28,440 bases of DNA from a virus (IMGVR_UViG_3300007539_000140:1-28440); one strand, 5' to 3'; positions 20,508 through 28,337 are shown, numbered from the stretch's first letter. Program-made: numbers and translations. Notes: generated by a model from the sequence alone, not told the origin.

Positions 20508-21225
20508 TTATAGCTTTTTTAATAAGAGAATAGTCTCGTATAGATGTCAGCTCTTTTAATGCCCTGACCTTTAACCCTTCTCCGTTGCTAGTTAGCAATT
20601 CTATGTTCTCAAGTAAAATTCTAATTTTTTGTTCTTCTCTTGTCAACTCATTGTATCGTTTCATTTTATCTCTTGTCTCTTTGTTTATTAATCTACTAAC
20701 TGTTGAGGTGCTGCAATTCAAATAACTTGCAATCGACCTAGATGTGGAAACAATTAACTGATCCCTTAAGGTGTCTATTGCAAGCAACACATCTATATTT
20801 GTGAACTTACAACCTCTTCTTATTACCTGAGCTGTTATAGATAACTTTTCTTCTGTAGATATTATTCTCTCAGGATTAAACACAACCCTCCTGTGTCTCC
20901 TGCAATAAGGTTTTTTCCTAGTAAAGAATATCTGTCTTAAAAAATGTTCTATCCTGGCTTTGCCATAAGTACGTATACACATACCAGAGTCTCTAGACCC
21001 TAGCCAGCAAAAATAACCTAAGTAGATTTCAAAATCAACATCACTATTGAGGTGCAAAAAAACTTCAGCTAGATACATCAGCTCATCAAACGATCCTATT
21101 TTCTTAGATATGTTTGTTAGAGAATAATGTTCTACTGGATTATCGTAAAAGACAAAGTCCATATCTTGAAAGTCATGTATCGTTTCAAGTATGAACTTAT
21201 CGTCTTCAAAGTCAAATAATACCAC
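20473..21225 (-). CDS. Helix-turn-helix protein, last gene of the chaperonin operon (250 aa)
   Basis: The N-terminal 100 residues are acidic and aromatic (DFEDDKFILETIHDFQDMDF). A basic linker follows (FTRKKPYCRRHRRVVFN), then a clear helix-turn-helix at about 160-183 with TSRSIASYLNCSTSTVSRLI, where SIASYL and STVSRL form the two helices. The rest is helical and charged, ending in four Ser. The start is a GTG (cac at 21223-21225) that overlaps the groES stop by one base; no closer ATG exists before residue 22. A DNA-binding role as transcription or replication regulator is likely. Its 3' end overlaps the convergent winged-helix-like gene by 35 nt, so their mRNAs would be complementary there. 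Confidence 0.6.
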   Translation of the reverse strand: MVLFDFEDDKFILETIHDFQDMDFVFYDNPVEHYSLTNISKKIGSFDELMYLAEVFLHLNSDVDFEIYLGYFCWLGSRDSGMCIRTYGKARIEHFLRQIFFTRKKPYCRRHRRVVFNPERIISTEEKLSITAQVIRRGCKFTNIDVLLAIDTLRDQLIVSTSRSIASYLNCSTSTVSRLINKETRDKMKRYNELTREEQKIRILLENIELLTSNGEGLKVRALKELTSIRDYSLIKKAITIFLRDESSSS

Positions 21226-21485
21226 TACAGTTTGATAACAATATGCGACTCATTTATTACCTCATATATATCATCCTCGTTAACACGGAGCTGAGAACTA
21301 GCAGCGATGTCGTAATACACGGAGTCTCCAACGACCAAATCATCTACTTCACTGCCTACGCTAATAACCTCTGCTAGTTTATGTCTCACTCCTTTATCTG
21401 TAACATCAGTGATTACCAAACCTAGTTTGTCTTTCACTTCTTCTTCTTTTCTTTTGAGTACAACCCATTTTCCTAGTGCATTCAT
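21225..21485 (-). CDS. groES: Co-chaperonin GroES (86 aa)
   Basis: A short Cpn10: GKWVVLKRKEEEVKDKLGLV covers strand 1 and the mobile loop, with LGLVIT in the place of the usual GGI-V-L. Then AEVISVGSEVDDLVVGDSVY matches the G-E-V and G-D-x-V blocks, and the roof region is short. It caps GroEL rings during folding. It follows groEL with a 4-nt ATGA overlap, the reverse of the usual bacterial groES-groEL order. At 86 aa it is slightly shorter than bacterial GroES (about 95). Its pairing with the adjacent GroEL is inferred from the coupling. Confidence 0.88.
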   Translation of the reverse strand: MNALGKWVVLKRKEEEVKDKLGLVITDVTDKGVRHKLAEVISVGSEVDDLVVGDSVYYDIAASSQLRVNEDDIYEVINESHIVIKL

Positions 21486-23101
21486 TCTTCGTCTTTTGGT
21501 AGTTCTCTTTTATTTGTTACTATACAATTAGTTTGTAAAACTATCTCAGCTACAGACAAAGCATTCTTAAATGCGGTTGTAGTCACTTTCGCTGGATCTA
21601 TAATTCCAGACTTGTACATATCTACGGTTTGTTTTTCTATAACATCAAAACCTGTTTCTATAGGTTTATCAGCCATATCCCTAAGTATGTCATCAACCTC
21701 TGCTCCTGTCTTTCCTGAGTTAATCATGATCGTTGCAATAGGAGAAGTTAAAGAGTTGTACAGTATAAATGCTGCGGCATCATGTTCTTGATCAGAGGAA
21801 GGCTTCATGTTTTTCTTAAACAAATAAATGCTTGCGTGATAAAGCGCAGCTCCGCCTCCTGGTAAAATACCTTCTTCTAATGCAGCTCTTGTTGCGCATA
21901 CAGCGTCATCAACTCTGTCTTTCTTTTCCTTCAGCTCTACTTCAGTGTAAGCTCCTACATATATAGTTGCAACTCCACCAGCAAGTCTACTGATTCTATC
22001 CTTGTAGTGCCAGTTGTTGTGAGGATCATCTTTACTATCTAAAAGAGACTTTACTACTTTAGCTTGATCCTTTATCTCTTTTGACGTAGTACCGTCTAGC
22101 GTTAGTATTGTGTGGTTGGCGGAGGATACTACTTTTTTTACCGATCCCATGTTACCTACACCCACGTTGGTCCAATCAACTCCTGTGTCATCTGAAACTA
22201 CGGTAGCACCTGTCATCACGGCTAAGTCTTCTAATAACTCCAGGCGATTCGAGCCCACTCCTTCAGGAGCCACCACACAGATGTCAAGTGCACCACGTAG
22301 TTTGTTGTTGTTAATATTGGCCATTACGTTTTGTTCCACTTCCCCTACGATAAGTAAAGGACGCTTCTGCGTAATAGATGCCTCTAAGTAGAACTGTATA
22401 TCAGCCCACTTCTTTATTTCTTTGTCAGCTACAAGTACAAGAGCATTCTCCAAGACACATAAAGACTTCTCTCTATCAGTAATAAGATAGTTGCTTGCGT
22501 ACCCTCTTTTTATTCTGGTACCGTCAACTACTTTTACATATGTCTTTTGATTGGATGAGGTCTCTATACTCACAGCACCATCTGTTCCTACTTTCTGAAA
22601 AGCCTCTGCAACTACACGTCCAAGTAATGGGTCGTTGTTAGCAGAAATGGTAGCTACAGACTGTAACTGTTTTTTAGTTACTTTCTTTGTGTTATCCTTG
22701 AGGTACTTTAATATGTCCTCACCGATAGCTCTCATTCTTTCTCTGACAACATTGTGGTTGAGGTGGGGTTCACCTTGCATTTTATCAGTAGCGTGTTTTA
22801 TTATGTCTTGAGCTAATACAACTGAAGTAGTTGTTCCGTCTCCTGCAATATCTCCTGTCTTCACAGATGCATCTCTAATTATAGACGCACCCATATGTTC
22901 TACTGGGTGAGATAGGTTAATTGATTTTGCAACAGTCACACCGTCTTTTGTAACGTGTGGTTTACCGAAGTCGTCTTCAATAATTACTGTTTTCCCTGCA
23001 GCTCCTAAAGTTGTTTTGACTGCGTTTGCTAGTGTGTTGATTCCTTGACGCAGGAATAAATTGGCTTCGTCTCCGAAGTCTACGAATTTTTCTATTGGCA
23101 T
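21482..23101 (-). CDS. groEL: Chaperonin GroEL (539 aa)
   Basis: This is a full-length Cpn60. The ATP site is intact: LGAAGKTVIIEDDFGKPHVT at 32-51, TKDG (D53), GDGTTT at 87-92 (D88), and RVDDA with D399, the residue equivalent to E. coli D398. GILPGGGAAL at 411-420 is present. The apical domain keeps RGYASNY (199-205, with both Tyr of the substrate- and GroES-binding face) and an extra-polar helix NVMANINNNKLRG. The usual C-terminal GGM repeats are missing; the protein ends KRELPKDEE. It probably folds phage proteins, perhaps the giant virion proteins. It is not a host fragment, since it sits within a compact phage operon with groES and an HTH gene, and the start follows a phage-type promoter region. 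Confidence 0.95.
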   Translation of the reverse strand: MPIEKFVDFGDEANLFLRQGINTLANAVKTTLGAAGKTVIIEDDFGKPHVTKDGVTVAKSINLSHPVEHMGASIIRDASVKTGDIAGDGTTTSVVLAQDIIKHATDKMQGEPHLNHNVVRERMRAIGEDILKYLKDNTKKVTKKQLQSVATISANNDPLLGRVVAEAFQKVGTDGAVSIETSSNQKTYVKVVDGTRIKRGYASNYLITDREKSLCVLENALVLVADKEIKKWADIQFYLEASITQKRPLLIVGEVEQNVMANINNNKLRGALDICVVAPEGVGSNRLELLEDLAVMTGATVVSDDTGVDWTNVGVGNMGSVKKVVSSANHTILTLDGTTSKEIKDQAKVVKSLLDSKDDPHNNWHYKDRISRLAGGVATIYVGAYTEVELKEKKDRVDDAVCATRAALEEGILPGGGAALYHASIYLFKKNMKPSSDQEHDAAAFILYNSLTSPIATIMINSGKTGAEVDDILRDMADKPIETGFDVIEKQTVDMYKSGIIDPAKVTTTAFKNALSVAEIVLQTNCIVTNKRELPKDEE

Positions 23102-24465: not shown

Positions 24466-24495
24466 TTGTTATTCCGATCTACTTCCCTATATTTA
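24466..24495 (+). promoter_or_regulatory. Early operon promoter TTG-N19-TATATTTA
   Basis: TTG at 24466-24468 and TATATTTA at 24488-24495 are 19 nt apart, with one mismatch to TAnnTTTG. Five bases later comes GTCAAAC, the start of the leader that also follows each ribozyme cleavage site. The first early ATG is at 24523. A second, similar arrangement, TTG-N18-TATATGAA then CAGTCAAAC, is at the right edge of the window. The two support each other as phage early promoters. Confidence 0.65.
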
Positions 24496-24499
24496 CAGA

Positions 24500-24522
24500 G
24501 TCAAACAAAAATAATACACAAT
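24500..24522 (+). repeat. GTCAAAC leader, copy 1 (promoter-proximal)
   Basis: GTCAAACAAAAATAATACAC with a short AT tail leads to the ATG at 24523. G to ATG is 23 nt, against 23, 22 and 22 nt in the three ribozyme-derived leaders. It has no Shine-Dalgarno sequence. It probably forms the 5' end of the primary early transcript. Confidence 0.75.
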
Positions 24523-24783
24523 ATGAAAACACAAGTAACTCAGTATCAAGGCATTAGCATCAAAAACAAGGCTAATTACCGCCAAACCAAGAAGGCCATT
24601 GATTGGCTGATCAAACACAATGAGGCCGACAGACTCCGTAACATCGCAGATGGAGAAGGAGATGAAAGAGCATACAACAAGTATGACAGACAGGCTGAGA
24701 AGACTTACGATAAGTACTTAGAGGCTATCGATTACCTTCCCAGTTACCAAGTTAAACTAATTGAAAAATCTAATCTTTATTAA
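24523..24783 (+). CDS. Hypothetical early protein 1, charged (86 aa)
   Basis: The chosen ATG at 24523 follows the conserved GTCAAAC leader; a longer frame from 24460 would run through the promoter. The protein begins MKTQVTQYQGISIKNKANYR and is strongly charged and mainly helical, with KKAIDWLIKHNEADRLRNIA and many Tyr/Asp/Glu residues (YDRQAEKTYDKYLEAIDYLP). No membrane span, Cys or catalytic motif is seen, and no family is recognised. As the first gene after the early promoter it may be made soon after infection, for example to take over host functions; that is inference. Confidence 0.7.
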   Translation: MKTQVTQYQGISIKNKANYRQTKKAIDWLIKHNEADRLRNIADGEGDERAYNKYDRQAEKTYDKYLEAIDYLPSYQVKLIEKSNLY

Positions 24784-24784
24784 A

Positions 24785-25144
24785 ATGAACAACACAATCA
24801 AAATTACAGAGCAAGACAGAGCATTCATGATGACCATTCGTGAGGCAAGAGATCAACAGATCAGAAGAGAAGAGGAAACTCTTCGAGTGATCAAGGATCA
24901 GATCAGGGAGAAAAAGTGGGCAGTAAATTACATGGGTGATTTTCTTCATGGAGAGATGTCTATTGACGTACTATTCACGACTCCTGATGGCGAGCAAGAG
25001 GTGATCTTCAAAGGCTTTTATTACGTAGAGGACAATGGGGTAAGCCTATTCCCTGAAGACGACAGCAATGCGTCAATGGTAAGCGTCATGGAAGACCTCA
25101 TCGCAGAGAGACAAATCAACATTAACTTTAGAAACAACAGATAA
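24785..25144 (+). CDS. Hypothetical early protein 2, acidic (119 aa)
   Basis: The ATG at 24785 directly follows the preceding TAA (TTAAAATG), so this start is preferred over an in-frame upstream TTG at 24761. The N-terminal third is helical and charged (ITEQDRAFMMTIREARDQQI), and the middle has beta-type strands (SIDVLFTTPDGEQEVIFKGF). Then comes an acidic loop VSLFPEDDSNASMVSV and a helical end. No known family. It is cotranscribed with the first early gene, without a ribozyme between them. Confidence 0.7.
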   Translation: MNNTIKITEQDRAFMMTIREARDQQIRREEETLRVIKDQIREKKWAVNYMGDFLHGEMSIDVLFTTPDGEQEVIFKGFYYVEDNGVSLFPEDDSNASMVSVMEDLIAERQININFRNNR

Positions 25145-25146
25145 TT

Positions 25147-25656
25147 ATGAAAACTACATTTACAAAAACAGAACTAAACGAACTGCTATCTATTGCAACA
25201 GCAGAGATCAAAGAACTCAAGGCAGACAACTCAATCCTCAAGAGAGAGAACAAAAGGATGCATGAGGAAAGGGATGACCTTTTTGATGATATCAGAAGAC
25301 TCAACAAAGAGAACAAAATGCGTTTTACAGTAATGCAAAAGCAGTTTGATGAATTGCAATCAAGCGAGAACATCGATTCGATTATTTGGTTTGGACTTAA
25401 TTACCCTCCAAACTTTATCAGAGAATGTTGGTCAGATGATCCATGCTTGGCTAATCATTTAAACGACAAGTTTGCGATGTGTCATGAAGGAACAGATGAA
25501 ATGAAAGGATGGGTTAAGACAAGGTTGTCATATGGAGTCTTTACTCGATTCTTAACCATGCTTGATGACGGAAACAGGGATAAACTATACCAGTACATCC
25601 TTGACACCTATTCACGTAAAACAGGATTCAAAGTCAGGCATACTGAAGAGGCTTAG
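25147..25656 (+). CDS. Hypothetical early protein 3, N-terminal coiled coil (169 aa)
   Basis: Residues about 8-75 form a long coiled coil rich in Glu, Lys, Arg and Asn (IKELKADNSILKRENKRMHE and on). The rest is a compact domain with NYPPNFIRECWSDDPCLANH and LSYGVFTRFLTMLDDGNRDK. The last codons, VRHTEEA and the TAG stop, are shared with the first hammerhead ribozyme: the codons for R-H-T-E-E-A form stem I, the CTGAAGA core and stem II, and TAG is the first triplet of loop II. No family is recognised. It follows the preceding gene by 2 nt. Confidence 0.7.
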   Translation: MKTTFTKTELNELLSIATAEIKELKADNSILKRENKRMHEERDDLFDDIRRLNKENKMRFTVMQKQFDELQSSENIDSIIWFGLNYPPNFIRECWSDDPCLANHLNDKFAMCHEGTDEMKGWVKTRLSYGVFTRFLTMLDDGNRDKLYQYILDTYSRKTGFKVRHTEEA

Positions 25657-25693
25657 ATTAGCCGAAACAGGGAGTAACATCCCTGTCTATGTC
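25637..25693 (+). ncRNA. Hammerhead ribozyme 1 (type I)
   Basis: All parts of the hammerhead core are present in order. Stem I 5' strand is GGCATA (25637-25642), then CTGAAGA (25643-25649, position 7 may be any base). Stem II is GGCT/AGCC (25650-25653 with 25660-25663) with loop TAGATT, followed by GAAA (25664-25667). Stem III has 7 bp (ACAGGGA with TCCCTGT, loop GTAACA), giving GTC with cleavage expected after C25687. Stem I 3' strand is TATGTC (25688-25693). Stem I may extend through a CA/AA internal loop to AAGT/ACTT. The 5' part overlaps the end of the upstream CDS; its stop TAG opens loop II. Cleavage leaves a 26-nt leader before the ATG at 25714. Confidence 0.93.
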
Positions 25694-25713
25694 AAACTTA
25701 AAAATACACAATT
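25691..25713 (+). repeat. GTCAAAC leader, copy 2
   Basis: GTCAAACTTAAAAATACACA followed by ATT leads to the ATG at 25714, 23 nt from G to ATG. The first three bases are also the end of ribozyme stem I. It is nearly identical to the copy at 26336-26357 and similar to the promoter-proximal copy. There is no Shine-Dalgarno sequence; the A-rich stretch probably directs ribosomes, as is usual in Bacteroidetes. Confidence 0.8.
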
Positions 25714-26037
25714 ATGACACAGAAAGAAAAATTTATCAGAGAACGACAGGCAGACTTTCCTGCGATTGAACAGATGCAAGACTGGATCGACAAAGGCTAT
25801 GTATGGTCAATGGAAGGATCAGTAGGTAGAGCCGCCCACAGTGGGTTAGAATGCGGAATGTACTTCCTGCCTAACGAGTCATTCGTCAATCCCTATGGTA
25901 CACGCATACCGTCAAGGGAAGAGATCAGGATAGGCACCGAAGGATCACTGGACAATGCCTATGATTTCTACAACGATGATAATAACCTTTGGGAACTGGA
26001 ACTGGAGTATAATGCTTACGAAGATGACCAATGGTAA
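25714..26037 (+). CDS. Hypothetical early protein 4, acidic (107 aa)
   Basis: A soluble acidic protein that begins MTQKEKFIRERQADFPAIEQ, with MQDWIDKGYVWSMEGSVGRA and FVNPYGTRIPSREEIRIGTE in its middle. It ends in a very acidic, aromatic tail (YDFYNDDNNLWELELEYNAY). Small, acidic phage proteins of this kind are often inhibitors or DNA mimics, but nothing specific is visible here. It is the first gene after ribozyme 1 and starts with MTQ, as does the first gene after ribozyme 3. The next gene overlaps its end by 7 nt. Confidence 0.7.
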   Translation: MTQKEKFIRERQADFPAIEQMQDWIDKGYVWSMEGSVGRAAHSGLECGMYFLPNESFVNPYGTRIPSREEIRIGTEGSLDNAYDFYNDDNNLWELELEYNAYEDDQW

Positions 26038-26303
26038 AACTGGAAAACACCCAATACTGGCTATTGAAGAATAGTAGGGGTCAGTACATCTGTGATCAAG
26101 GTAAGATCAAGCAGAACTCAGGCAAGGCCATAACGTTCGACACCAAGAGAACTGCTGTAGACTACGCTAAGATCAACAGAAGGAGAGCATTTAATCCTGT
26201 AGAAGTAATCAGCATCACATGGATCGACAACAGCAGACATCCAAGAACTGTGGTTACGTCTGAGGAGAAAATGATCGAACACAGGCATACTGATGAGGAC
26301 TAA
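26031..26303 (+). CDS. Hypothetical early protein 5, basic (90 aa)
   Basis: The start ATG at 26031 lies within the last codons of the preceding gene, so the two are coupled. The protein is basic with short strands: NTQYWLLKNSRGQYICDQGK, KAITFDTKRTAVDYAKINRR and FNPVEVISITWIDNSR. This pattern suggests a small beta-sheet protein. The last residues, RHTDED and the TAA stop, overlap ribozyme 2 in the same frame as in ribozyme 1 (RHTEEA). It has no membrane segment and belongs to no family I can name. Confidence 0.7.
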   Translation: MVKLENTQYWLLKNSRGQYICDQGKIKQNSGKAITFDTKRTAVDYAKINRRRAFNPVEVISITWIDNSRHPRTVVTSEEKMIEHRHTDED

Positions 26304-26338
26304 TGTCCGAAACTCCCAGTCAGATGGGAGTCTATGTC
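26284..26338 (+). ncRNA. Hammerhead ribozyme 2 (type I)
   Basis: Stem I 5' strand is GGCATA (26284-26289), followed by CTGATGA (26290-26296). Stem II is GGAC/GTCC (26297-26300 with 26305-26308) and loop TAAT. GAAA is at 26309-26312. Stem III is ACTCCCA with TGGGAGT (26312-26318 with 26325-26331), loop GTCAGA, and the GTC triplet ends at C26332, the expected cleavage site. Stem I 3' strand is TATGTC (26333-26338). Stems II and III differ from ribozyme 1 at most positions but still pair fully. The upstream stop TAA opens loop II. Cleavage leaves 25 nt before the ATG at 26358. Confidence 0.94.
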
Positions 26339-26357
26339 AAACTTAAAAATACATAAA
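26336..26357 (+). repeat. GTCAAAC leader, copy 3
   Basis: GTCAAACTTAAAAATACATA followed by AA leads to the ATG at 26358, 22 nt from G to ATG. It matches copy 2 at 18 of the first 19 bases. An ATG at 26334-26336, inside stem I, happens to be in frame with the gene, but the other copies show that this is part of the leader and not the start. Confidence 0.8.
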
Positions 26358-26948
26358 ATGGAAAATGACAATTTACAAAAATGCAACTGCTGTGAGCAGG
26401 AAATCGATTACGACACAATGTACTCAAAGGAAACCCTACAGGGTGAAGTGTTATGTGAAGACTGCTGTGATGAACCATGGGAACACTCCCCTACCTTAAT
26501 TAGCTTTGGACATCCAACTCATGACGAAGGTGAGAAGTTTTACTGGTGTAAGGAATATGATTTTGCCAATTCATACCTTGAAGAACTCTATGGAGACGAT
26601 GAGCAGACTCTACCAGTCAATGGGTTTGAGTACGTGAGAACCGATGCATGGAGAGGATACTGGAGTCCACAGATCAGAGAGGAATTCATGTCATTCGATG
26701 GATGGTATACAGGATGGGTAGACGAGACGATCTCTCACAAACTAACCCTCAACCAACTCCTTGATGATTTAGGAGAGCAACACCTTGATCTATACTTTCC
26801 AATTTGGGTGATTATGTGTCCAACGTCAAACGTCTTTAGCCAGTCAACTGATATAATGATCAAGAAGGCTGATTTAAGCCGTTTTGAGGACTTATTGTTC
26901 GACAACTATGGTATAACATCAAAAGAACTACAAAACTCCTTAAAATGA
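26358..26948 (+). CDS. Hypothetical early protein 6 with a zinc-finger-like N-terminus (196 aa)
   Basis: The ATG at 26358 follows the conserved leader, so it is preferred over the in-frame ATG at 26334 that lies in ribozyme stem I. The N-terminus has C9-x2-C12 and C33-x2-C36 (KCNCCEQEIDYDTMYS and VLCEDCCDEPWEH), a pairing typical of a zinc ribbon or treble-clef finger of about 28 residues. The rest is aromatic and acidic, with GFEYVRTDAWRGYWSPQIRE and FDGWYTGWVDETI, then LYFPIWVIMCPTSNVFS. No family is recognised. It overlaps the next gene by 4 nt (ATGA). Confidence 0.7.
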   Translation: MENDNLQKCNCCEQEIDYDTMYSKETLQGEVLCEDCCDEPWEHSPTLISFGHPTHDEGEKFYWCKEYDFANSYLEELYGDDEQTLPVNGFEYVRTDAWRGYWSPQIREEFMSFDGWYTGWVDETISHKLTLNQLLDDLGEQHLDLYFPIWVIMCPTSNVFSQSTDIMIKKADLSRFEDLLFDNYGITSKELQNSLK

Positions 26949-27154
26949 AGGAAAAAGATTTAGCTTTAATTACTGCCATAATTATCCAAGAGGATTTACT
27001 TGGAGGAACCGTTTTCCAGACCTTCGATAAGGCATGGGAACTTGCCATTGAATTCCAAAAACTGTACGCTCATGATTTTTATTGGGAGAGACAGGAAAAA
27101 GATTTCGATGAGGCTATTATAGATTTTGTAAACTCTAAACTTGAATTAGTATGA
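26945..27154 (+). CDS. Hypothetical early protein 7, helical (69 aa)
   Basis: A small helical protein with DLALITAIIIQEDLLGGTVF, TFDKAWELAIEFQKLYAHDF and a final FDEAIIDFVNSKLELV. It is amphipathic rather than a true membrane protein. The start overlaps the preceding stop (ATGA, preceded by TTAAA), and its own TGA overlaps the start of the 52-aa gene in the same way. Translation of the three is therefore probably coupled. The function is unknown. Confidence 0.65.
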   Translation: MKEKDLALITAIIIQEDLLGGTVFQTFDKAWELAIEFQKLYAHDFYWERQEKDFDEAIIDFVNSKLELV

Positions 27155-27309
27155 ACGTGATAATAGACATGAAGACAGCCTATGGGAACTACAGATCCTT
27201 TCCCAAGCAATTCAATGACGAAGGCCATATGAACAACTGGATCAGAGTCATGAACAACAAAGGCCACAAGATCATTGGAATACACGACAGGCAATCTGAT
27301 GAGTCCTGA
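27151..27309 (+). CDS. Hypothetical early protein 8 (52 aa)
   Basis: An ATG at 27151, overlapping the preceding TGA, opens a 52-codon frame that ends TGA at 27309. The protein begins MNVIIDMKTAYGNYRSFPKQ and ends GHKIIGIHDRQSDES. It is basic to neutral with a likely beta-hairpin near the end. The last codons (R-Q-S-D-E-S) and the stop overlap ribozyme 3 in the same frame as the RHTxEx ends of the genes before ribozymes 1 and 2, which supports that this short frame is real. Confidence 0.7.
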   Translation: MNVIIDMKTAYGNYRSFPKQFNDEGHMNNWIRVMNNKGHKIIGIHDRQSDES

Positions 27310-27346
27310 ATGGACGAAACTGCATCCTTGTGGTGCAGTCATTGTC
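27290..27346 (+). ncRNA. Hammerhead ribozyme 3 (type I)
   Basis: Stem I 5' strand is GGCAAT (27290-27295), followed by CTGATGA (27296-27302). Stem II is GTCC/GGAC (27303-27306 with 27312-27315) with loop TGAAT. GAAA is at 27316-27319. Stem III is ACTGCA with TGCAGT (27319-27324 with 27334-27339), possibly extended by T-G and C-G pairs. GTC ends at C27340, the expected cleavage site. Stem I 3' strand is ATTGTC (27341-27346). Compared with copies 1 and 2, stem I has changed on both strands (GGCATA/TATGTC to GGCAAT/ATTGTC) and still pairs, which is true covariation. The stop TGA opens loop II. Cleavage leaves 25 nt before the ATG at 27366. Confidence 0.94.
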
Positions 27347-27365
27347 AAACTAAAAAATATATAAA
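27344..27365 (+). repeat. GTCAAAC leader, copy 4
   Basis: GTCAAACTAAAAAATATATA followed by AA leads to the ATG at 27366, 22 nt from G to ATG. It differs from copies 2 and 3 by small changes in the A-rich part only. The GTCAAACT start and the spacing are kept. Confidence 0.8.
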
Positions 27366-27788
27366 ATGACACAACTTAAATTAGCAGTCACAGAAGTAAG
27401 GTCCTTCGAGACTCGCAGAGGTACAGGATACCAATGTACCACCAACGTAAAGAATGTAGAAATATGGAACGATGGTAATGGAGGTGGGACATGGATTCCA
27501 CCGCACGGCACCTACACTAAACCATATAGTGAACTAACAGGTATGGAACTGGAAAGTCTTATAGATGACTATGAAAAGAAAATTGACGATAGGCTGGAAA
27601 AAACTATTCAGAAGTATAAAAAACCACACAAAGGAGATAAATCCTCTGATGCATACGATGAAGAGAGACTTAAGACAGAACTGAACTGGTGGAGAAACTA
27701 CGGATATTATGTAGCAAACAAACACAACAACGTAGATGCAGAAGCCTGTGGGTATGCTGATGGAGACGAAGAATACTTAAAATCTTAG
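27366..27788 (+). CDS. Hypothetical early protein 9 (140 aa)
   Basis: The N-terminal half is beta-like and Gly-rich (LKLAVTEVRSFETRRGTGYQ, then WNDGNGGGTWIPPHGTY). The C-terminal half is helical and charged (MELESLIDDYEKKIDDRLEK, KTELNWWRNYGYYVANKHNN) and ends GYADGDEEYLKS. No Cys pairs or membrane span stand out, and no family is recognised. It starts right after the ribozyme 3 leader. Five bases separate it from the next gene, with no ribozyme there. Confidence 0.7.
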   Translation: MTQLKLAVTEVRSFETRRGTGYQCTTNVKNVEIWNDGNGGGTWIPPHGTYTKPYSELTGMELESLIDDYEKKIDDRLEKTIQKYKKPHKGDKSSDAYDEERLKTELNWWRNYGYYVANKHNNVDAEACGYADGDEEYLKS

Positions 27789-27793
27789 ATCAA

Positions 27794-28054
27794 ATGGAAA
27801 TTGTAAAACAATCAGAGTACAGCTTTACGACTATCACAGTCGGATACTTGGCCTTTACTTCTGTAGACGGAATGGAAAGGGTGGAGGTTAGAGTAGAAGG
27901 CGAATATGATGCCGATGGTTTCAATGTAAACAAAAGGATCATAGAGGAAGGAAGTGATATTACCCTGTACGATGCAGGTTTGCTTTTAGTAAACGACATC
28001 AAGGACATGGACAAACTTCTTAAACACACAGATAACTTAATTAATGACTATTAA
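27794..28054 (+). CDS. Hypothetical early protein 10, acidic (86 aa)
   Basis: A small acidic protein with strands YSFTTITVGYLAFTSVDGME and RVEVRVEGEYDADGFNVNKR, followed by a helical end LLLVNDIKDMDKLLKHTDNL. It looks like a compact alpha/beta domain, but no family is recognised. Its TAA is one base before the ATG of the last gene (TATTAAAATG), the same junction type as between early genes 1 and 2. Confidence 0.65.
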   Translation: MEIVKQSEYSFTTITVGYLAFTSVDGMERVEVRVEGEYDADGFNVNKRIIEEGSDITLYDAGLLLVNDIKDMDKLLKHTDNLINDY

Positions 28055-28055
28055 A

Positions 28056-28286
28056 ATGAAAGACACAAAGAAACACACAATCAAGGTTGATTCAGATTCT
28101 GAAGAGGTGACGTTATACCTCAATACAGAATTCGGTTACTCAATCCATTCCTTTGACATAAGTGATGGAGAAGTGGAGATCACTGACAGGAGAAAGTTTA
28201 CTTTGATCGCTCAAGTACTTGGGATTACAGGTAAGACGTTAGAGCGACAAATTGAGGACGCAATAGAGGACGCAACCGTCACCTGA
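28056..28286 (+). CDS. Hypothetical early protein 11, last gene of the operon (76 aa)
   Basis: The ATG at 28056 follows TATTAAA, the usual junction; an in-frame ATG at 28044 would overlap the preceding gene. The protein begins MKDTKKHTIKVDSDSEEVTL, has a beta-type middle (FGYSIHSFDISDGEVEITDR) and a helical end (LGITGKTLERQIEDAIEDA). The function is unknown. It is followed after 19 nt by a strong terminator hairpin, so it closes the early operon. Confidence 0.65.
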   Translation: MKDTKKHTIKVDSDSEEVTLYLNTEFGYSIHSFDISDGEVEITDRRKFTLIAQVLGITGKTLERQIEDAIEDATVT

Positions 28287-28305: not shown

Positions 28306-28337
28306 AAGGAGGGAGGGGTAATACCCTCCTTTTTTTA
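28306..28337 (+). terminator. Rho-independent terminator of the early operon
   Basis: AAGGAGGG (28306-28313) pairs with CCCTCCTT (28324-28331) around a 10-nt loop and runs into seven T residues. It lies 19 nt after the last early stop codon. It is the only clear intrinsic terminator I found in the window. Confidence 0.88.

Follow-up and report, generated by a model that had tools for sequence, protein, structure and literature searches.

A 28,440-base virus fragment (IMGVR_UViG_3300007539_000140, hereafter the window, meaning the whole stretch analyzed) carries three complete type I hammerhead ribozymes, HH1, HH2 and HH3 (Table 1), on the plus strand at three junctions of a single co-directional gene block, where they probably act in cis to process a polycistronic transcript between its cistrons into four mRNAs. 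The core, the three stems and the cleavage site that the first-pass annotation had described at these positions are all present, its type I assignment and its expectation of four transcript parts stand, and the 5' ends that it predicted (25688, 26333 and 27341) agree with the structures. Every copy has the exact core CUGANGA, GAA-A and A15.1-U16.1, with C at H17, and the type I topology, in which the 5' and 3' ends enter through an open stem I and stems II and III are capped by loops. Stems I, II and III measure 6, 4 and 7 base pairs (bp) in HH1 and HH2 and 6, 4 and 8 bp in HH3.

A descriptor made of the core and three helices matched the window three times on the plus strand and never on the minus strand, and it found nothing in 200 dinucleotide shuffles of the window, both strands included, or in 1.56 Mb of reversed sequence. 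HH1-HH3 scored 58-64 bits against a covariance model of the family described below, a result that indicates consistency and not proof, since all three were among its 38 training rows; the independent evidence for hammerheads, drawn from sequence comparison, is the covariation together with about 230 relatives. The first-pass annotation had proposed an Infernal search with Rfam hammerhead models as a check, and over the whole window this search gave no match at E ≤ 1. When run on 1.8 kb, it placed RAGATH-1-hammerhead (RF03152) at 26.8, 25.6 and 24.4 bits (gathering threshold 56.3) and Hammerhead_3 at 16 bits, all sub-threshold. The best-scoring models, RAGATH-1-hammerhead and Hammerhead_1 (RF00163), share the core and the open stem I with the window copies, but all copies score below gathering and lack the conserved upstream hairpin of RAGATH-1, the corresponding model positions being mispaired, which leaves them outside that family. 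Rfam models at their gathering thresholds also missed the hammerheads in five other loci. Because Rfam fails for the whole family, the missing matches are a gap in the library models and were not taken as absence; Rfam was dropped as a decisive test. Annotation pipelines overlook these hammerheads for the same reason.

Relatives of the window copies were collected with two search patterns. The first, which included the leader that follows the cut and left the stems free, returned 63 viral-contig stretches, and the second, with stem II and its loop fixed and stem I and leader free, returned at least 120. Pooled, they comprise at least 237 distinct hammerheads in at least 150 loci, nearly all on phage contigs; among sequenced bacterial genomes the second pattern matched seven contigs only. 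Among the matches listed (both patterns bias some feature of the copies they find), stem I is exactly 6 bp in 226/237, stem II is 4 bp in 219/237 and loop II is mostly 5 nucleotides (nt), and arrays reach six copies with a median spacing of 619 nt and no locus with copies on both strands. Two sets of copies came to light solely by proximity; a 6-bp stem I occurs in 48/56 and 22/25 of them, A-7 in 49/56 and 25/25, and A+7 in 43/56 and 23/25. These two adenosines and the 5-nt loop II (mostly UNAAU), beside the constant 6-bp stem I, hint at a tertiary contact between the stem I region and loop II. The longest array among the matches listed holds six hammerheads in a 5-kb stretch (L159, 8745-13228, minus strand), and in several of its copies stems I and II have 5 bp and loop II differs. 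High-scoring family hammerheads were also observed on Bacteroidota genome contigs, possibly prophages, of Mucilaginibacter pedocola (L312, 7474-7524) and Aquimarina algiphila (L315, 6637-6690).

The stems vary in sequence while remaining paired. In 38 aligned sequences, 98.6% of stem cells are paired, a value that is inflated because the descriptor preselected sequences that pair; the variety of pair types is not inflated in this way, with 197 double-sided stem changes versus 53.7 in shuffles and a covariation score of 0.834 versus 0.182 in shuffles and at most 0.111 in slid controls. By blast, 68 Flavobacterium elemo-phage records, related to the source phage, match the element, and both records examined, elemoE_6-9C and elemoC_13-1C, contain a hammerhead. 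Although these two phages are near-identical, their stem II elements are separated by two compensatory pairs (GACT/AGTC to GGTT/AACC) and by N7 in surroundings that hardly differ otherwise (two sequences compared by reading), evidence that the fold is under selection at present. An annotated protein of elemoE_6-9C, KNV12_gp65, lies antisense over the hammerhead (L263, 16289-16396) and is probably not a gene.

Repeats of this kind might also be promoters or protein-binding sites that resemble hammerheads incidentally, and the leader part does follow promoter-like sequence as well (24466-24495; L011). However, the controls gave zero chance matches, and the stems vary freely with pairing kept, unlike DNA-binding sites; such a role is extremely improbable and is largely refuted by the covariation. 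The hammerheads could alternatively be relics or mere passengers, with ribozyme and leader travelling as a selfish cassette that brings no current benefit, as would be consistent with their patchy occurrence among relatives and with the resemblance among copies within one genome. This appears highly improbable given that the core positions are all intact, that stems change in a compensatory manner both across deep divergence and between sister isolates, and that placement is fixed.

Among the matches listed, a frame starting with ATG follows 8-80 nt after the cut in 220/237, versus 64/237 on the opposite strand, and the predicted cut precedes the start codon by a median of 26 nt (middle half 24-29). 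Upstream stop codons peak at -9/-8, at -3, at +1 (the UGA of the core CUGA) and at +11 in loop II; the last is the position seen in all three window copies, where the stop codon forms the first three nt of loop II, and the upstream stop codon appears fitted to the ribozyme. Within each gene block of the window the genes overlap or nearly touch, and a hammerhead separates successive blocks, the three junctions with hammerheads being those where adjacent genes are not translationally coupled.

The leaders that would follow cleavage start with NNNGTCAAAC and are then A-rich; an in-frame ATG at 26334 sits within stem I of HH2. Twelve-mers matching post-cleavage leaders occur elsewhere too, at 139 sites that lie on the same strand and apart from hammerheads versus 21 on the opposite strand, and in the window the leader also follows the promoter-like element before the first operon gene. 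Because it recurs on the same strand without hammerheads, the leader goes with the gene start, with the hammerhead as one of several RNA elements that can precede it. The leader motif GTCAAAC was rejected as a part of the ribozyme: it recurs without hammerheads and is present in 5/168 hammerheads found without requiring it. Since the leader of the first gene resembles the post-cut leaders, cleavage would roughly recreate the 5' end that this gene receives from transcription start.

We infer that HH1-HH3 would cleave in the cell, cutting the transcript at the three non-coupled junctions into four mRNAs, each with two or three coupled genes. The upstream mRNA would then end in the stem III hairpin as a cap with a 2',3'-cyclic phosphate terminus, and the downstream mRNA would begin with a short 5'-OH leader of 25-26 nt, like that of the operon's first gene, so that 5' ends might be equalized for translation and possibly for stability. 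Intercistronic processing is favored because of the observed placement of the structures, their covariation, the reuse of the leader and the exchange with other structured elements described below. RNase III sites do the equivalent job in the early region of T7, where they likewise process an early polycistronic transcript between its cistrons; those sites need a host enzyme, whereas a hammerhead RNA would cut itself.

Several points weigh against processing. The analogy with RNase III sites draws on general background about T7. Most leader-bearing genes lack a hammerhead, and hence the leader does not require cleavage; the closest complete relatives, with a terminase large subunit (TerL) identity of 63-75%, also lack one, and the ribozymes are therefore dispensable over evolution. 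In genomic context, stem I is left nearly unpaired (0.00-0.06) by ViennaRNA, whose energy model leaves out core and tertiary contacts, and competing folds are predicted, so that kinetics and tertiary contacts would have to win over other stem I pairings. For the isolated elements the hammerhead is the minimum free energy fold of HH1 and HH2 and lies within 0.2 kcal/mol of it for HH3.

The main rival is dosage control, in which the ribozymes would be destabilizing elements whose cut exposes fragments to decay and limits or times expression, with the separation of mRNAs as a by-product. Self-cleavage can lower or raise mRNA stability, and 5'-OH and 2',3'-cyclic phosphate ends may act either way; moreover, with the stop codon in loop II, terminating ribosomes would cover the core, and translation could hold cleavage off. 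The nearly constant distance from cut to start codon, the conserved leader and the 3' hairpins nevertheless fit translatable mRNAs better than destruction, and we consider dosage control unlikely. A further scheme has the fragments between two hammerheads closed into circular mRNAs, with the ribozyme or an RtcB-type ligase doing the re-ligation; it is chemically possible, as every inner fragment would carry a 5'-OH at one end and a 2',3'-cyclic phosphate at the other. The predicted HH1 5' end matches the 5' strand of HH2 stem I at 6/6 positions, and across loci consecutive pairs are fully compatible in 46% versus 6% for pairs from different loci. Other same-locus pairs, however, reach 35%, a small difference from 46%, and duplication accounts for most of the compatibility; from HH2 to HH3 the match is only 4/6. 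A search for circular or spliced products by Perreault et al. gave none (PMC3088659). Circular mRNAs are very unlikely, and self-circularization was rejected as the main role, the strand compatibility being explained by duplication.

Other structured elements take the place of the hammerhead in related phages. No hammerhead was found in four complete genomes of TerL relatives, and no conserved copies were detected in 80 loci of close TerL relatives, mostly not covering the operon region. The 65-kb contig whose terminase is most similar (75%), IMGVR_UViG_3300017913_001710 (L302-L305), likewise lacks hammerheads; in its gene block that corresponds to the operon, seven junctions at 60655-63522 on the minus strand each carry a variable GC hairpin, then a constant GCTTCATATACTAATCT and, about 30 nt on, an ATG. 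At other junctions, phages that have hammerheads and the leader TCAAACTTCAA place a long imperfect hairpin with the loop CTGAACGTAGTGA or TTCATTTATGAA immediately in front of TCAAACTTCAA (L016, L018, L024, L036, L051, L064, L190, L193, L229); these hairpins show some double-sided changes (10 cells) and resemble an RNase III site. No Rfam family, other ribozyme classes included, matches the non-hammerhead junction hairpins. A DUF805b RNA (RF02914, 51.2 bits, above gathering) was observed in a hammerhead-free sister phage (L304, 19354-19388).

Other carriers of the family include the T7-like pelagiphages Eistla (two copies), HTVC142P and Jormungand, the Methylophilales phage MEP301 and the N4-like Agrobacterium phage OLIVR1. 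The copies in Eistla and HTVC142P lie among small genes before the phage RNA polymerase gene, a region in which T7 has RNase III sites. In the early regions of the T7-like pelagiphages (Autographiviridae), the hammerheads, of the same class and unannotated, lie at L320 8787-8845 and 10041-10104, L318 663-726 and L321 38219-38279. A joint reading, which we offer tentatively as possible and short of probable, is that phages keep a modular gene-junction cassette in which a constant leader and a start codon follow an RNA element that can be exchanged: a hammerhead, a short hairpin or a long RNase III-like one. Each internal mRNA would then start like the primary transcript. The hammerhead would be the protein-free version of this element and would replace RNase III sites, a reading suggested by its presence in the early regions of T7-like pelagiphages; with the stop codon placed in loop II, ribosomes that terminate there could set the timing of cleavage.

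The first-pass annotation had taken hammerheads to be known only singly in phages and serial copies to be new, a view that gives way to earlier work: hammerheads in series within prophage operons were already reported by Perreault et al. (2011), who demonstrated cleavage and proposed the same processing (PMC3088659). Tandem prophage hammerheads cleave both in vitro and, as with the A. tumefaciens triple, in E. coli (PMC3088659). In their clusters from C. scindens, A. caulinodans and A. tumefaciens (the ardA triple), serial hammerheads border individual genes or short runs of genes within a phage operon and were assigned the same proposed role (PMC3088659), and this serial arrangement recurs here with three copies in the window and up to six in L159. 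Compared by description, their cases are prophages with mixed types I-III, whereas the present family is one type I subfamily with near-constant geometry and a shared leader in Bacteroidota-type and T7-like phages. The HHphage hammerhead of haloviruses HF1 and HF2 is likewise situated just upstream of an early-gene start, and in HF2 a mapped 5' end falls within three nt of the cut; it differs in being a single copy 13 nt before the start, in an archaeal virus, with a core variant (PMC3088659). Theta ribozymes of gut phages are also self-cleaving and proposed to act in transcript maturation, but they are hepatitis delta virus (HDV)-like and adjoin tRNAs (Kienbeck et al. 2024, PMC10879173).

Phage operons with serial hammerheads are thus already known. 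We found no account, in the open-access literature, of a family of constant geometry, of Rfam missing it at threshold, of its occurrence in early regions of T7-like phages, of stop codons incorporated into the ribozyme, of leader reuse or of other hairpins trading places with it ahead of a shared leader. The role of hammerheads in phages has been a standing question since 2011, and the near-constant geometry, the shared leader and the cultured carriers (elemo phages, Eistla, HTVC142P, MEP301, OLIVR1) make the processing hypothesis directly testable.

Table 1. Hammerheads, predicted cuts, leaders and gene blocks of the operon in the window.
Feature	Position	Strand	Details
HH1	25637-25693	+	stem I 25637-25642/25688-25693, core 25643-25649, stem II 25650-25653/25660-25663
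HH1, 3' part		+	GAA 25664-25666, stem III 25667-25673/25680-25686, predicted cleavage after C25687
HH2	26284-26338	+	stem I 26284-26289/26333-26338, core 26290-26296, stem II 26297-26300/26305-26308
HH2, 3' part		+	GAA 26309-26311, stem III 26312-26318/26325-26331, predicted cleavage after C26332
HH3	27290-27346	+	stem I 27290-27295/27341-27346, core 27296-27302, stem II 27303-27306/27312-27315
HH3, 3' part		+	GAA 27316-27318, stem III 27319-27326/27332-27339, predicted cleavage after C27340
Upstream-gene stop codon TAG in HH1 loop II	25654-25656	+	
Upstream-gene stop codon TAA in HH2 loop II	26301-26303	+	
Upstream-gene stop codon TGA in HH3 loop II	27307-27309	+	
26-nt leader after predicted HH1 cut	25688-25713	+	ends at ATG 25714
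25-nt leader after predicted HH2 cut	26333-26357	+	ends at ATG 26358
25-nt leader after predicted HH3 cut	27341-27365	+	ends at ATG 27366
Promoter-like TTG-N19-TATATTTA	24466-24495	+	pattern scan; upstream of first operon gene
First-gene leader GTCAAACAAAAATAATACACAAT	24500-24522	+	without hammerhead; resembles post-cleavage leader of HH1; ATG at 24523
Gene block 1	24523-25656	+	open reading frames (ORFs) 24523-24783, 24785-25144, 25147-25656
Gene block 2	25714-26303	+	ORFs 25714-26037 and 26031-26303, overlapping
Gene block 3	26358-27309	+	ORFs 26358-26948, 26945-27154, 27151-27309; overlapping starts/stops
Gene block 4	27366-28286	+	ORFs 27366-27788, 27794-28054, 28044-28286
Intrinsic-terminator-like hairpin GGAGGG/CCCTCC plus seven T, block end	28308-28336	+	

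The operon extends from the promoter-like site to the terminator-like hairpin on the plus strand, opposite to the structural genes on the minus strand, and is presumably early, being divergent from these genes and made up of small genes without known function. The promoter-like element resembles the Bacteroidota promoter consensus; its loose pattern has 19 matches in the window and is weak alone, the argument being its position directly 5' of the leader. The operon proteins gave no convincing Pfam or PHROG match, and blastn of the operon against phages gave no match. The terminase and portal proteins of the window match the PHROG terminase large subunit and portal families, and a Bacteroidota host is likely because the nearest named terminases are those of the uncultured podovirus MW202828 (63%) and then of phages of Flavobacterium, Maribacter, Cellulophaga and Tenacibaculum (43-33%). 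The minus strand at 21225-23101 also holds genes of the phage itself for a GroEL-like (21482-23101) and a GroES-like (21225-21485) protein, which several related phages encode too.

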